Positions 50,271 through 53,994 of a DNA stretch of 64,000 nt are shown here, in pieces. Where the stretch lies: assembly GCF_017569225.1 (NCBI RefSeq), contig NZ_CP071868.1:3472001-3536000 (forward strand), read 5' to 3'. Position 1 is the stretch's first letter. Each line of letters begins with the position of its first letter. This DNA is from Pengzhenrongella sicca (GTDB taxonomy: Bacteria; Actinomycetota; Actinomycetes; Actinomycetales; Cellulomonadaceae). Made by a program: the position numbers and the translations under genes. The notes beneath the pieces were generated by a model. It saw only the letters and a program-made list of their open reading frames with translations. It was not told where the DNA came from and did not search any database.

Positions 50271-50315
50271 GTCGCCGCTGTCCGGCGGGTGGGCCGCCCG
50301 CCGGACAGTGGCGAC
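50271..50315. terminator. Strong 19-bp hairpin between convergent genes
   Basis: The left arm starts GTCGCCGCTGTCCGGCGGG (50271-50289) and the right arm is CCCGCCGGACAGTGGCGAC (50297-50315), with a 7-nt loop. The 19-bp stem has a single G-T wobble. It lies 54 bp past the flavoprotein stop and 8 bp past the stop of the ychF 3'-end remnant at 50323, so it probably was the native ychF terminator as well. Confidence 0.75.
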
Positions 50316-50322
50316 GCTCAGG

Positions 50323-50406
50323 TCAGACGTTGAAGCGGGACTCCACCACGTCGCGTCCCGGAACACCATCTGCTTCAGCCGTTGCCGACAACCCGAACGC
50401 AACCAT
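50323..50406 (-). pseudogene. Remnant of the original ychF 3' end (site C)
   Basis: Read on the minus strand this short frame ends '...ADGVPGRDVVESRFNV' plus TGA, against '...ADGDVVEFRFNV' plus TGA at the end of intact ychF 2.6 kb away. The DNA from ACGTT to GTCGC matches in 24 of 28 positions. Its codons (CGC TTC AAC GTC) are typical of this genome, whereas the end of the intact gene uses AGA TTT AAC GTG. I infer this is the native ychF end, displaced by insertion. Confidence 0.65.
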
Positions 50407-50417
50407 CTCGCCGCCGC

Positions 50418-50801
50418 TCAGGCGAGCAACTCCATTCGATCCCTCCACCGCATCAGACTCGGCACCCGAAGCGCGTTACCAATGAAGACGATCGCGATGA
50501 GGAGAATGTAGGCAACGAAGACGACAACGACGCCTCCCCAAAACCCCGCTTCACGCGGCTGTCGGATAAGCGGGGCAGCCAGCACGCCCACGCCGCCGCC
50601 GGCAGCAGCAGCTCCGAGCAACCCCACCCCTAGCGCGATGCGCCATACGAATGAGCGCACGAACTTGCGCTTCCAACCGAACACCTGGGCTGGCCGTCGC
50701 GGCCAGGGCACACGGTCAGCGTGATGCCGCCCGCCCGGTTCGCCCACTGTCACGTCGTCAGAATGGCCGGACGTCGACAGTCTCAGGAGGCGTTCCTGCA
50801 T
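50418..50801 (-). CDS. Hypothetical membrane protein
   Basis: Not recognised. A 127-residue chain with a basic ~45-residue N-terminus and two strongly hydrophobic helices ('VWRIALGVGLLGAAAAGGGV' at ~51-75 and 'WGGVVVVFVAYILLIAIVFI' at ~88-108). It fills most of the short segment between the ychF-end repeats at 50323 and 50808, so it is probably cargo of that insertion. The ATG at 50801 is the first in frame; no clear ribosome-binding site was seen. Confidence 0.55.
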   Translation of the reverse strand: MQERLLRLSTSGHSDDVTVGEPGGRHHADRVPWPRRPAQVFGWKRKFVRSFVWRIALGVGLLGAAAAGGGVGVLAAPLIRQPREAGFWGGVVVVFVAYILLIAIVFIGNALRVPSLMRWRDRMELLA

Positions 50802-50807
50802 CCGCAG

Positions 50808-50835
50808 CTAGACGTTAAGTCTGAACTCCACGCCG
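50808..50835 (-). repeat. ychF 3'-end-like repeat (site B)
   Basis: On the minus strand it reads Asn-Gly-Val-Glu-Phe-Arg-Leu-Asn-Val-stop. The 20 bp ACGTTAAGTCTGAACTCCAC differs at one position from the end of intact ychF (site A, 52914 onward). It lies between two inserted segments, 50336-50807 and 50836-52908, with related ends (sites C and A) outside them. Confidence 0.7.
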
Positions 50836-50901
50836 TTCCGGTTCCGAACAACAGCTGTCCGACAGAGGCCCGAATGGTTGAAGCCCACGGTCGAGGTGAT
50901 C

Positions 50902-52176
50902 TCACGGCCCGAGGCAGCCGAGGGGAAGCACCCAGACCCCATCGGTCCGACGGTAGCCATACTCGGTGCCGGTGATGACGACGAGCGCACTGGGCGCGAC
51001 AGATACCCGGGTGTCGGCCAGGTGGAGCAGTGCCGCCGCCGCCTCGTCGACCAGGTCGCCCCCGAGCTTGACCTCGAACCCTGCCCAGCGCCCGTCCGCC
51101 TGCTCGACCACAAGATCGACCTCAAGGTCACCGGAGCTCTCGCGATAGTGGAAGACTCGTCCGCCGCTCGCCTCGGCGTAGATTCGAAGATCCCGAGCGG
51201 CGAGTGACTCGAACAGAAAGCCGAGCGTGTTCAGGTCACCGAGAAGCCGCTCGGGCGAGCAGTCCATCAGTCCCGCGGCGAGCGAAGGATCGACCAGCAG
51301 CCGCTTCGGCAGGCTGATCAGCCTGCTCCGTGAGCGGAGCGAGGGGCTCCACGCTTCGATCTCGTCCACGATCATCATTCGCCTCAATGCCCGAAGGTAG
51401 GGCTCGGCGGACCACCGCGTCAGACCGCCGGCGTCCTCGTCGGCACTCTCGAAGTCTCCTCCGTGCGCCCGCGCGACGATCGTGCTGAGCCGGGCCGGGT
51501 GGGCGGTGAGCTGGGCGTAGGCGTGCAAGAACCGGCGCACCAACCGCGGGTCCCGGCGAGCCCCGGACACCACATCGATGTCGTGCTCGACGATCGTTTC
51601 GAGGTAGTCGCGGATGAACTGCATCGCAACCTTCGGCTCGGCCCCGAGGAGCTGCGGCCAGCCACCAACAACAATCCGCTCGGTGTACGCCCGCAACGTG
51701 AGTTCGCTGCGCGTGGCATCCGGCGCCTCACCAGACATCAACGCAGCGAGCGACATCTGCCCCGTCGAGTAACCCTGCTCGAACAGAGTCATCGGGCGCA
51801 TCCTCATCACACTGATGCGCCCCGCGCCAGAATGCCTCGCGGCGTCGTCGTTCGGCGTCGCTGAACCCGTGAGGATGAACTGACCCGGCACTGAGCGGTC
51901 ATCCACCGCGCGCCGCACGGCGTCCCACACCCGTGGCCCGCGCTGCCACTCGTCGATCAACCGTGGCGACGGACCGTCGAGGACCAGCCGGGGATCGACT
52001 GCCACCGCACGCATCGCTTCGACGTCGACGTCGAGCAGCACCTCGCTCGCGGCACGCCGCCGCGCCGTTGCCGTCTTGCCGCATGCCTTGGGCCCCTCGA
52101 TCACGACCGCACCGAGCGCCGCAAGGCGATCCAGCAACTGGCCGTCCGCGATCCGCGGCACGTACTCGATGGCCAT
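50902..52176 (-). CDS. AAA-type ATPase with C-terminal DUF4143 domain
   Basis: A 424-residue protein. Walker A 'GPKACGKT' is at residues 28-35, Walker B 'RLIDEWQ' at ~75-81 and a sensor-like 'FILTGSA' at ~104. The second half is DUF4143, ending with 'DLEVDLVVEQADGRWAGFEV'-K, a spacing that resembles a PD-(D/E)xK nuclease core. These ATPases are common, mobile and poorly understood; roles in regulation or genome defence have been suggested. The ATG at 52176 has AAGGTG upstream. It has lower G+C than the backbone and lies inside the ychF-end insertion. Confidence 0.85.
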   Translation of the reverse strand: MAIEYVPRIADGQLLDRLAALGAVVIEGPKACGKTATARRRAASEVLLDVDVEAMRAVAVDPRLVLDGPSPRLIDEWQRGPRVWDAVRRAVDDRSVPGQFILTGSATPNDDAARHSGAGRISVMRMRPMTLFEQGYSTGQMSLAALMSGEAPDATRSELTLRAYTERIVVGGWPQLLGAEPKVAMQFIRDYLETIVEHDIDVVSGARRDPRLVRRFLHAYAQLTAHPARLSTIVARAHGGDFESADEDAGGLTRWSAEPYLRALRRMMIVDEIEAWSPSLRSRSRLISLPKRLLVDPSLAAGLMDCSPERLLGDLNTLGFLFESLAARDLRIYAEASGGRVFHYRESSGDLEVDLVVEQADGRWAGFEVKLGGDLVDEAAAALLHLADTRVSVAPSALVVITGTEYGYRRTDGVWVLPLGCLGP

Positions 52177-52211
52177 GGCACCTTCAATCGCAGCGTGGTC
52201 CGTGCGGCAAC

Positions 52212-52272
52212 CTACATCGAGCAACCAAGCCAGACTACATCTAGCAACTGGATCAAACTACAACCGGCAACC
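52212..52272. repeat. Three 15-bp iterons (23-bp period) upstream of the DUF4143 ATPase
   Basis: CTACATCGAGCAACC (52212-52226), CTACATCTAGCAACT (52235-52249) and CTACAACCGGCAACC (52258-52272) are direct repeats with an exact 23-bp period, ending 36 bp before the ATPase start. The arrangement, on one face every two helical turns, looks like binding sites for a regulator, perhaps the ATPase itself. Confidence 0.75.
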
Positions 52273-52383
52273 CGGAGGTCACGCGCATCCACGGCGGCGC
52301 GACTCTAGCGACCTGAACAAAACCACTCTTCGCCATCACCTCGGCAACCGTTCGCGGCGGCACGAGACGACGGGTGCTCGGGC

Positions 52384-52747
52384 CTAGAGCGACGACCCAG
52401 ACCCAGTAGCTATCCGCAGATGCCCGATGACGTCGTGAGCTGCGTGGAAGACGGGCGAAGCCGGATGGCGGTTGTTGCCCAGGTCGGCCCCGGCCGCCGT
52501 GACGACCTTCTAGACGCTGTCCAGCGAGCACGAGCAATTCCTGACCCGCAACGCGAACGGTCTCGTGCGAACCCCCACCGATGATGCCGAATGCCGCGCT
52601 GGTGTAAAGACTCGTCGTTCCGTCTGAGCGCGTCACGAGGCAATGCCAGCCATCGTCATCAGGGAACGATGTATCCATGACGATCCCCCAGACCGGCGCG
52701 GTCGCTTTCGGCGTGAGTCCAAGGGTGACCGGGTCGGCGGTGAGCAC
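52384..52747 (-). pseudogene. Frameshifted small hypothetical protein gene
   Basis: The first part from ATG 52747 reads well ('PVWGIVMDTSFPDDDGWHCL', 'SLYTSAAFGIIGGGSHETVR') and resembles a widespread family of ~120-residue actinobacterial proteins of unknown function. At about 52510 the family-like sequence moves to another frame ('VVTAAGADLGNNRHPASPVF', 'AAHDVIGHLRIATGSGSSL') ending at TAG 52384, and one in-frame TAG occurs near the junction. It therefore appears to be a decayed gene. The following 52748-52908 has no gene I can support. Confidence 0.6.
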
Positions 52748-52908
52748 CCGTGATCGTAGGGATGCTCCCTAGCTCGGTTCCGCGGACCGCGCCTGCCCGT
52801 CGGTCTTGGACCCTCTTCTCCCGAACATGGCGCTGACCGTACGTCGCCGCCCTGAGATCACTATCACGGCTCGCCGAGGTCAATGCCGTCGATCGCCTCG
52901 AGGAGCTG

Positions 52909-52939
52909 TCACACGTTAAATCTGAACTCCACCACGTCG
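52909..52939 (-). repeat. ychF 3'-end site A (outer junction of the inserted segments)
   Basis: The end of the intact ychF coding sequence, reading Asp-Val-Val-Glu-Phe-Arg-Phe-Asn-Val-stop on the minus strand. It shares 19 of 20 bp with site B (50808) and 24 of 28 with site C (50323). GTGGAGT is common to all three and is the likely crossover core. Confidence 0.65.
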
Positions 52940-53994
52940 CCGTCGGCCATCACGTAGTCCTTGCCCTCGACGCGCGCCTTGCCGGCGGCGCGGGCAGCCG
53001 CGATCGAGCCCGTCTCGACGAGGTCGTCGAAGCCGATGACCTCGGCCTTGATGAAGCCTCGCTGGAAGTCGGTGTGGATGACACCGGCGGCCTGCGGCGC
53101 GGTCCAGCCGCGGTGGATGGTCCAGGCGCGCGTCTCCTTGGGCCCGGCGGTGAGGTAGGTCTGCAGGCCGAGCGTGTGGAAGCCCACCCGCGCGAGCTGG
53201 TCCAGGCCGGCCTCCTCGATGCCGGTCTCGGACAGCATCTCGGCCGCCTCGTCCGGCTCGAGCTCGACGAGCTCGGACTCGAACTTCGCGTCGAGGAAGA
53301 TCGCGTCCGCGGGCGCGACGAACGCGCGCAGGTCGGCCTGGGTCGCGGCGTCGGCGAGGCCGGCGTCGTCGGTGTTGAAGACGTAGATGAACGGCTTGGC
53401 CGTCATGAGCTGCAGCGCCGCGACCTGCTCGGGGTCGAGGCCCGCCGCGGCCGCGCCCTGGAACAGCGTGGTGCCGGCCTCGAGCAGCGTGCGCGCGCCG
53501 ATCGCGGCGTCGAGCAGCCCCTGCTCGGCCTTCTTTCCGCGGACCTCCTTCTCGAGGCGCGGGATCGCCTTCTCGAGGGTCTGCAGGTCCGCGAGGATCA
53601 GCTCGGTGTTGATGGTCTCGATGTCGTCCTTGGGCGAGACCTTGCCCTCGACGTGGATGACGTCGGGATCGGCGAAGACGCGCGTGACCTGGCAGATCGC
53701 CTCGGCCTCGCGGATGTTCGCGAGGAACTTGTTGCCGAGCCCCTCCCCCTCGCTCGCGCCGCGCACGATGCCCGCGATGTCGACGAACGACACCGTCGCG
53801 GGCAGGATGCGCTGGCTGCCGAAGATCCCCGCGAGGACCTCGAGCCGCGGGTCCGGCAGCGGCACGATCCCGACGTTGGGCTCGATCGTCGCGAACGGGT
53901 AGTTCGCGGCGAGCACCTGCGCACGGGTGAGGGCGTTGAAGAGGGTGGACTTGCCGACGTTGGGCAGGCCGACGATGCCGATAGTGAGAGCCAC
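52909..53994 (-). CDS. ychF: Redox-regulated ATPase/GTPase YchF
   Basis: A 361-residue Obg-family NTPase. G1 'GLPNVGKSTLFNALT' is near the N-terminus, followed by 'YPFATIEPNVGIV', G3 'FVDIAGIVRGASEGEGLG', a coiled-coil domain (~130-200) and the C-terminal TGS domain ('WTIHRGWTAPQAAGVIHTDF'). YchF binds ribosomes and prefers ATP over GTP. The GTG start at 53994 has TAGACT at 54003-54008, implying a leaderless mRNA. The final codons AGA TTT AAC GTG are atypical for this genome and match repeats at 50323 and 50808, indicating that the 3' end was replaced by insertion. Confidence 0.95.
   Translation of the reverse strand: MALTIGIVGLPNVGKSTLFNALTRAQVLAANYPFATIEPNVGIVPLPDPRLEVLAGIFGSQRILPATVSFVDIAGIVRGASEGEGLGNKFLANIREAEAICQVTRVFADPDVIHVEGKVSPKDDIETINTELILADLQTLEKAIPRLEKEVRGKKAEQGLLDAAIGARTLLEAGTTLFQGAAAAGLDPEQVAALQLMTAKPFIYVFNTDDAGLADAATQADLRAFVAPADAIFLDAKFESELVELEPDEAAEMLSETGIEEAGLDQLARVGFHTLGLQTYLTAGPKETRAWTIHRGWTAPQAAGVIHTDFQRGFIKAEVIGFDDLVETGSIAAARAAGKARVEGKDYVMADGDVVEFRFNV

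Follow-up and report, generated by a model that had tools for sequence, protein, structure and literature searches.

Tandem cassettes at the 3' end of ychF and a candidate large serine recombinase system in Actinomycetota

Integrons, which work by recombination between attI and attC, form arrays of small units in fixed orientation, in which single units recur with different neighbors and toxin-antitoxin pairs are found. Such integron-type traffic is little known in actinobacteria. A different kind of mobile element, the staphylococcal or enterococcus cassette chromosome (SCC/ECC), uses a large serine recombinase (LSR), has its attB in the 3' region of rlmH, and carries highly variable cargo; according to the extracts of PMC6222049 that cover these points, attR and the circle site have inverted repeats, and 16 of 32 ECC contain several attR sites. 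The actinobacterial prophages and integrative elements that depend on serine integrases (phiC31, phiJoe) encode LSRs with Resolvase and Recombinase domains.

The locus described here is the 3' end of ychF in a 64-kb window of Pengzhenrongella sicca DNA (the whole stretch that was analyzed), together with its counterparts in other genomes. Like SCC/ECC, the ychF system combines a candidate LSR with an attB at the 3' end of a conserved gene, attR sites with inverted repeats, and variable cargo. It differs in its target (ychF, not rlmH), in its Actinomycetota hosts, in its units of mostly no more than 4 kb compared with the 21–78 kb given for ECC in extracts of PMC6222049, and in a recombinase that is not a Ccr: two of the LSRs (P0003 and P0002) score 74.2 and 59.5 bits against NCBIfam CcrB, which has a cut-off of 900, and the CcrA and CcrC scores also lie far below the curated cut-offs. 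With integrons it shares the four features named above, but no match to a tyrosine recombinase (IntI/PF00589) turned up in the 20 kb behind ychF in the 20 genomes compared, the anchor is a conserved gene, and the machinery, with its GT crossover, is unrelated. The LSR domains are shared with serine-integrase prophages, as may be a two-sided dyad in the clearest ychF elements; unlike such prophages, the small ychF cassettes would regenerate attB.

We propose that the 3' end of ychF serves as attB for an LSR subfamily in Actinomycetota and that cassettes sharing this site build arrays, a reading to which we assign a probability of roughly 85%. If true, it describes a single-site exchange platform in actinobacteria for defense, toxin-antitoxin, and stress genes across distant genera, predicts the region behind ychF as a place to look for new cargo, and offers LSRs together with their natural att sites in a conserved gene as material for integration tools. 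The spread of recombinase-free cassettes, a question that SCC-like elements raise as well, would also become testable. No description of a ychF 3'-end integration site was found among the matches listed in full texts of open-licence PubMed Central papers; what comes closest are sites used by pneumococcal prophages, which lie between genes upstream of ychF (extracts of PMC8637289 and PMC10383233), and in the extracts of PMC12811286 ychF appears as a phylogenetic marker only.

Three ychF ends and two cassettes in the window

The window's ychF (52909..53994, minus strand) is a member of the YchF/EngD GTPase family whose 3' end would be the attachment site and whose translation ends in ...DVVEFRFNV. 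A ychF match (E ≤ 0.001) was found in 59 of 59 genomes searched, this one included, with only a distant match, near 1e-9 or 1e-10, in four of them (G025, G045, G047, and G051). The earlier note on this DNA had reported three copies of the ychF end, starting at 52909, 50808, and 50323, and these are real: the end is present in tandem as sites A, B, and C, all on the minus strand, with segments of 2,101 and 485 bp between them. A repeat search placed the three in a single 33-nt family whose copies start 485 and 2,101 bp apart, and the A/B sequence (≤3 mismatches allowed) is found at A, at B, and nowhere else in the genome of 4.4 Mb, C being more distant. A site profile of 51 positions, trained on 119 stretches from other genomes, gave scores of 24.1 for A, 46.4 for B, and 47.7 for C. 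B and C lie outside the training set because neither fits the exact pattern used to gather the training stretches. The rest of the window contains no further site scoring ≥12 on either strand, and the control, i.e., fetched loci reversed and reverse-complemented (2 × 1.82 Mb), contains none scoring ≥8.

Site A (52909..52940, minus strand; GT crossover at 52931-52932) is attB-like. Its left half fits host ychF and its right half, TTCAGATTTAACGT, fits a gene end supplied by an element, with most relatives printed carrying a CGCTTCAACGT type there; the last ychF codons, AGA TTT AAC GTG, apparently come from cassette 1. Site B (50808..50853, minus strand; GT at 50830-50831) is the attR-like junction of the two cassettes, with arms reading GGAAC-GGC-GT-GGA-GTTC. 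Site C (50323..50370, minus strand; GT at 50345-50346) is the distal attR-like site and the presumed native end of ychF. Just past it, the strong hairpin of the earlier note is present (50271..50315, no strand assigned), with 22-nt arms (50271-50292 and 50294-50315) that are 91% complementary and 1 nt apart; it probably represents the gene's native terminator. In B- and C-type sites, the left half does not consist of ychF sequence but shows a conserved motif, agAgGTT..Tc.G...CGGAAC. These sites have GGAAC..GTTCC arms, and GGCGAC replaces GGAAC at most ychF ends printed. As in SCC/ECC, B- and C-type sites are thus attR-like with inverted repeats and preserve the end of the host gene.

Cassette 1 (50832..52930, minus strand; 2,101 bp GT to GT) is bounded by A and B and carries an AAA_14 + DUF4143 ATPase (50902..52176, minus strand; Pfam PF13635, E 1.2e-24, and PF13173, E 3.7e-11), relatives of which at ~40% identity are encoded ~2.7 kb behind another ychF (L047) and in the array locus of Kocuria marina (L165). 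A 164-aa frame in the same cassette (52253..52747, minus strand), without a Pfam or NCBIfam match, is probably a decayed gene and shows 29% identity over 103 aa (two-sequence E 1e-5) to a 167-aa frame in the array locus L126. Cassette 2 (50347..50829, minus strand; 485 bp GT to GT), bounded by B and C, contains an open frame for a small membrane-like protein of 127 aa (50418..50801, minus strand), with hydrophobic stretches recognized by eye and no Pfam or NCBIfam family match. With two cassettes but no LSR there, the window looks like a parked array.

Sites and mobile units in other genomes

The ychF-end sites are part of a widespread system. Among 94 Cellulomonadaceae-like ychF loci that had not been picked for sites, 21 carry further sites (18 at a cut of 30), while opposite-strand sites scoring ≥20 are absent from these 94 loci (1.8 Mb). 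We take the frequency from this count only, the 119 stretches having been selected for a site. Of 100 loci fetched, six were set aside to give the 94, namely L125-L127, which had been selected for a site, and L107, L108, and L129, where a ychF end went unrecognized; the loci were picked by ychF score and size of contig after an earlier result had been seen, and 84 of them are ≥19 kb long (the shortest 3.5 kb). The exact site pattern occurs in 10 of 221 genomes of the family (0 for the reversed control), and a scan of 84,980 genomes with it returned at least 119 stretches, all but one of those listed being named as actinobacteria; in stretches without a recognized ychF, the gene's own end could count as a site.

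Occupied and empty sites can be paired in relatives (L131/L042, 86.5% identity over 594 bp; L044/L045, 91% over 556 bp). Five genomes were entered twice (copies confirmed identical) in the comparisons of empty sites, near-identical units, and toxin-antitoxin cargo, and their duplicate copies are left out of the unit counts. The 202 measured units have a median size of 1,287 bp, with 190 of them ≤4 kb. Their cargo includes genes for toxin-antitoxin systems, acetyltransferases, and restriction, among others. Arrays are present in environmental strains such as Glutamicibacter ardleyensis, whose locus L188 has six complete units, and Sanguibacter gelidistatuariae. In many units a toxin-antitoxin pair directly follows the site; for the higBA cassettes, the reading frames were re-read directly.

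Some units are 97–99.8% identical end to end across different genera, with differing neighbors. For example, a 1,282-bp unit is 98.8–99.5% identical in four hosts, and a 1,145-bp unit is 97.6% identical between Timonella and Microbacterium barkeri, whose ychF genes share 78.9% DNA identity (78.8% for M. barkeri and a Brevibacterium MAG). An adjacent pair of cassettes (3,212 and 1,361 bp) occurs in the same order in Kocuria carniphila and Ornithinimicrobium. Comparison of genomes shows the sites and their arrays as well as transfer of cassettes between genera.

Together, these pairs and recurring units support the earlier note's proposal that elements inserted into the ychF 3' end. They also fit its further points, i.e., a gene end supplied by an element at A with the native end displaced to C, B as the junction of two tandem elements, and elements without a recombinase of their own, none being encoded in the window's cassettes. 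The occupied/empty pairs for which it had called were obtained in relatives but not for the window's exact locus, where no empty site was found and the flank beyond C is non-syntenic in the relatives compared. Likewise, site-bounded units do recur near-identically in other genera, but the window's two units are not among them, with no near-identical copy of either found in the other genomes searched.

The crossover point and a candidate recombinase

Comparison of 26 cassette pairs locates the crossover at the GT dinucleotide inside GTGGAG, as expected of serine recombinases: at left junctions the pairs diverge up to the base preceding GT, and at right junctions divergence begins mainly with the base that follows, so that the mismatch profile brackets GT as the 2-bp crossover of LSR-mediated integration. 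The pairs are not independent, since some ten cassette types account for all of them and L082 and L205 belong to a single genome. The insertion point that the earlier note had put at GTGGAGT is narrowed to these two bases.

The candidate enzyme of cassette movement is likely an LSR found at the ychF locus of other genomes. LSRs were collected with a two-sequence profile from 396 genomes of the order, both seeds having been chosen for adjoining a site. Two LSRs, P0002 (498 aa) and P0003 (489 aa, from Nonomuraea), match PF00239 and PF07508 (Resolvase and Recombinase domains) above cut-off. Among 13 genomes with an LSR, ten have it on one contig with ychF, in nine cases 31 bp to 14.4 kb downstream, and all nine genomes with an LSR within 15 kb downstream of ychF have a replaced YchF tail. 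In G881 the LSR lies 314 kb from ychF, and in G662, G816, and G966 the two genes are on different contigs; the YchF tail is of the ordinary type, RFNV, in G881, G662, and G966. The LSR starts within ~65 bp of a site in five cases (G120, L242, G843, G816, and G803), and in G850, G908, and G698 it lies 3–11 kb from ychF and not at a recognized element edge. The LSRs that have a profile-scored site next to them are not united in a single clade.

Between the ends of LSR elements, an attP-like dyad matches at 21, 21, and 19 of 26 positions in three elements and at 15, 14, 13, and 10 in four others, with 7–12 of 26 in comparisons against host right halves and ≤13 of 23 positions in shuffles. For the three clear cases, the distal site used in G850 and G882 does not adjoin the LSR, and the ends in G816 lie on different contigs.

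An LSR match is present in 6 of the 119 site-bearing stretches (each ≤8 kb). The G120 LSR as query found no relative in a protein scan of genome contigs, and a strict LSR search of 396 genomes of the phylum found none, which shows little, as three candidates were scored per listed genome. In phage and plasmid records, all matches to the LSRs are below 60% identity; Microbacterium phage UtzChips encodes a related LSR, and the 8.9-kb stretch of it that was examined contains no ychF-like site. A phage origin of the small units was rejected: in IMG/VR, two exact patterns retrieved no ychF-end site and the LSR query no relative.

Possible routes of cassette movement

Under the proposed mechanism, LSR-encoding elements would insert at the 3' end of ychF by GT crossover, after which ychF would have a tail encoded by the element (attL), with a distal attR beyond. 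Many smaller, recombinase-free cassettes would use the same site, each with a ychF end of its own at the left boundary and an attP half-site at the right. Because each cassette carries both, ychF would stay intact, attB would be recreated at ychF, and older cassettes would be pushed away, so that arrays could keep growing at one place inside a conserved gene. The outcome would be tandem, shuffled arrays, integron-like or composite-SCC-like. That the LSR subfamily moves the cassettes is what we infer, and two routes come into question. Neither is proven because the cassettes come without a second attP half and described serine integrases, in the extracts of PMC3783163, recombine attP with attB or, with a helper, attL with attR, and accept no other pairings.

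By the first route, an LSR element would excise with a distal attR, take a neighboring cassette along, and later leave it, so that cassettes move by hitchhiking. This needs nothing beyond the accepted pairings (PMC3783163, extracts), and the ordered cassette pair of K. carniphila and Ornithinimicrobium is as block transfer predicts. Yet none of the loci seen has an LSR element with ≥2 cassettes directly behind it, few LSR loci having been examined beyond 20 kb, and we give hitchhiking as the only route close to an even chance.

By the second, SCC-like route, a cassette would circularize (forming a PL-BR' site) and be inserted at ychF by an LSR supplied in trans, with full-attP LSR elements as a separate branch. 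The recurrence of single cassettes with different neighbors speaks for such direct movement, whereas three of seven LSR elements have clear two-sided attP-like ends, and the described integrases do not accept a mixed site of this kind as a partner for attB (PMC3783163, extracts). As the sole route, it is possible at somewhat less than even odds. Equally tentative, with the balance tilted a little against it, is the fuller picture of a widespread integron-like LSR cassette system in Actinomycetota with movement in trans via a half-attP, half-attB site that textbook integrases do not use.

The proposed LSR mechanism also has to be weighed against a tyrosine recombinase of phage or integron type: the GGAAC/GTTCC arms with 8 bp between them look like the core of a tyrosine recombinase site and its overlap, and tyrosine integrases commonly insert at the 3' ends of genes. 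We rejected it as very improbable, since in 20 genomes, of which 17 have sites, no PF00589 match was listed in the stretch downstream of ychF (20 kb, or less where the contig ends earlier; coordinates compared by eye), and an LSR adjoins the site in five genomes. Moreover, exchanged cassettes differ right up to the 2-bp GT on both sides, which leaves no room for an overlap of 6–8 bp. Similarly improbable is an origin of the repeats by homologous recombination or by duplication of the gene's end, with the segments as ordinary fixed intergenic content: it would suit the ychF-like right halves of the sites and the failure to find, for the window's own locus, an empty site or another copy of either unit, but in B- and C-type sites the left half is a motif of its own, relatives have empty sites, and units with exact ends are near-identical in other genera.

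Copies of the ychF 3' end in the window and in other genomes

A sequence check found the 3' end of ychF three times, with positions and strand as the earlier note had stated: site A at 52909, site B at 50808 and site C at 50323, all on the minus strand. A and B are the sole matches in the whole genome to the 20-mer with up to three mismatches allowed, and C is more diverged yet is picked up by a 51-position site profile built from 119 stretches of other genomes. With this profile, from whose training set B and C were absent, the sites score 24.1 (A), 46.4 (B) and 47.7 (C), and no further position in the window reaches 12. In 2 x 1.82 Mb of control sequence, no site scored 8 or more.

An exact pattern of the distal site matched 10 of 221 genomes of the family (reversed control, 0) and at least 119 stretches across 84,980 genomes. 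Among the 119 listed, none had matches on both strands, and all names but one are actinobacterial. The exception, a contig of 3.8 kb from a MAG named as "Bacillota", may reflect a binning error. The pattern had no match in IMG/VR.

We fetched 100 stretches downstream of ychF from the same family, which five contigs identical to named records (Sanguibacter, Xylanimonas, Timonella, Cellulomonas and Promicromonospora) place as Cellulomonadaceae in the wide sense. Among the 94 that were usable and not picked for a site, 21 carry one or more extra sites behind ychF at a score of at least 20 and 18 at a score of at least 30, with none on the opposite strand at score 20. Genomes of the same genus show no further sites in 20 kb (three genomes) or in the visible 3.3 kb (a fourth).

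Empty sites, for which the earlier note had suggested looking in relatives, were found as pairs of occupied and empty loci. Past its last site, occupied stretch L131 matches empty stretch L042 past the ychF stop (86.5% over 594 bp); L046 matches L042 at 87% over 564 bp, starting ca. 36 bp in, and L044 and L045 agree at 91% over 556 bp, L044 having some 40 additional bp. In Sanguibacter gelidistatuariae, about 20 ychF-like codons precede a distal site ca. 12.17 kb past the ychF stop, as though the cassette had brought a longer piece of ychF with it.

Shared cassettes and the crossover point

Near-identical cassettes recur in different hosts with exact ends. A 1,282-bp unit is common to genome G070, Microbacterium barkeri, Brachybacterium massiliense and a Brevibacterium MAG (98.8-99.5%), and a 1,361-bp unit to Kocuria carniphila, Ornithinimicrobium and Gulosibacter (97.6-99.7%), preceded in both Kocuria and Ornithinimicrobium by a 3,212-bp unit (99.8%). 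Further units are shared by Thermocrispum and Brachybacterium (1,844 bp, 99.0%), genome G032 and Kocuria marina (2,379 bp, 99.7%), G070 and a Nesterenkonia MAG (2,728 bp, 97.3%), and Timonella and M. barkeri (1,145 bp, 97.6%). The ychF genes themselves are ca. 70-79% identical in DNA among six hosts in view, and 78.8-78.9% in two unit-sharing pairs.

Junctions were compared in 26 pairs of cassettes with different neighbours, drawn from about 10 cassette types and hence not independent. At left junctions, mismatches occur at most positions before GT (in 3 of 26 at the last base before it) and are rare past it (3, 3, 2 and 7 of 26 at +2, +8, +9 and +11). On the right, the junctions match as far as GT except at four drifted positions (in 2-4 of 26 pairs), and mismatches begin at the base after GT, with 11 of 26 at +2. 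Together these patterns bracket an exchange of 2 bp in the middle of GGAAC-NNG-GT-SGA-GTTCC.

A candidate recombinase and possible routes of insertion

In genome G120, a large serine recombinase (LSR) gene starts ca. 63 bp inside a distal site, with ychF 55.8 kb away, and Nonomuraea lactucae has a 51% identical LSR starting ca. 16 bp inside such a site, with ychF outside the view. A broken N-terminal LSR piece lies at such a site in Brachybacterium equifaecis. When 396 genomes of the order were searched with a profile built from the two complete sequences, 13 had a match, three of them with a scored site adjoining the LSR (55.8, 49.6 and 28.8). LSR and ychF share a contig in 10 of the 13: in nine the LSR follows downstream of ychF at a distance of 31 bp to 14.4 kb, and in G881 it is 314 kb away; the other three have them on separate contigs. 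The YchF tail is replaced (e.g., RHGGTSGTGKK or RSGSASKR, not RFNV) in all nine genomes with the LSR near ychF as well as in G816 and G120, and is RFNV in G881, G662 and G966. In a tree of 14 LSRs (G662 and G966 left out), a 100/100 branch separates the LSRs of G881 and Microbacterium phage UtzChips from the other 12, which come from ychF loci or adjoin a site; this grouping was noticed after the fact. Serine integrases of phages UtzChips, Barnstormer, Caron and SuMoo are 45-49% identical over roughly the N-terminal two thirds of the LSRs; the UtzChips stretch examined contains no ychF-like site.

The ends of the LSR elements pair as a putative dyad at 21, 21 and 19 of 26 positions in G850, G882 and G816 (the distal sites of the first two read from second contig records, identical where overlapping) and at 15, 14, 13 and 10 in four others, compared with 7-12 for the left attP half (PL) against host right halves and 4-21 for PL against the right halves (PR) of other elements. 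In three loci (G908, G698 and G850), 3-11 kb separate the LSR gene from ychF, and a second GTTCCGG-type stretch lies just upstream of the LSR gene; these elements may be nested or tandem. Gordonia sp. ABSL1-1 has a replaced YchF tail (VVEFRHG) and, 1.65 kb further, a distal site, with no match to an LSR; this may be a short element whose ends are of the LSR type.

LSR elements carry putative PL and PR halves at their ends. Cassettes have PL at the right end and, at the left, a copy of the ychF end that resembles the host's (BR'), which makes A attB-like and B and C attR-like. Cassette insertion would leave ychF intact and re-form the landing site. The studied genome has just two Resolvase-domain matches, both at 1.11 Mb; its ychF lies at 3.52 Mb. 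Cassettes may have hitchhiked, moving together with LSR elements, a reading to which we give a probability of roughly 0.45. Direct, SCC-like insertion of the cassettes is an alternative of only slightly lower probability. The accepted serine-integrase rules (PMC3783163) would not lead one to expect a PL-BR' circle to recombine with attB. As these rules disfavour that pairing, we weigh hitchhiking and direct insertion about equally. The same site asymmetry is described for ECC/SCC (PMC6222049). The ychF cassettes work similarly to SCC and resemble an integron array but lack defining features of each. We found no description of a ychF 3'-end site in the open-licence PubMed Central papers searched.

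Size, number and cargo of the cassettes

With repeated genomes removed, the 202 measured units have a median of 1,287 bp, and 190 are no longer than 4 kb. Among 111 loci with a complete unit, most of them selected for a site, 52 have at least two units and 22 at least three; a Glutamicibacter ardleyensis stretch has six, with ychF outside the view. Pfam and PADLOC scans covered 140 of 251 representative frames, and the families listed (25 of 165 and 25 of 73) include GNAT acetyltransferases, PIN and FitA-like proteins, ParE, HepT, an aminoglycoside-adenylyltransferase family, AbiD, type III restriction-modification and candidate defence proteins. In 46 loci, the start of HigB lies no more than 150 bp from a site or the ychF stop, the distance being 34-35 bp in 36 of them (counts including repeated genomes), and 12 further HigB matches are located elsewhere. 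The higBA toxin-antitoxin pair at this 34-35 bp spacing often has a leader like TAGCGTTATTGACG.
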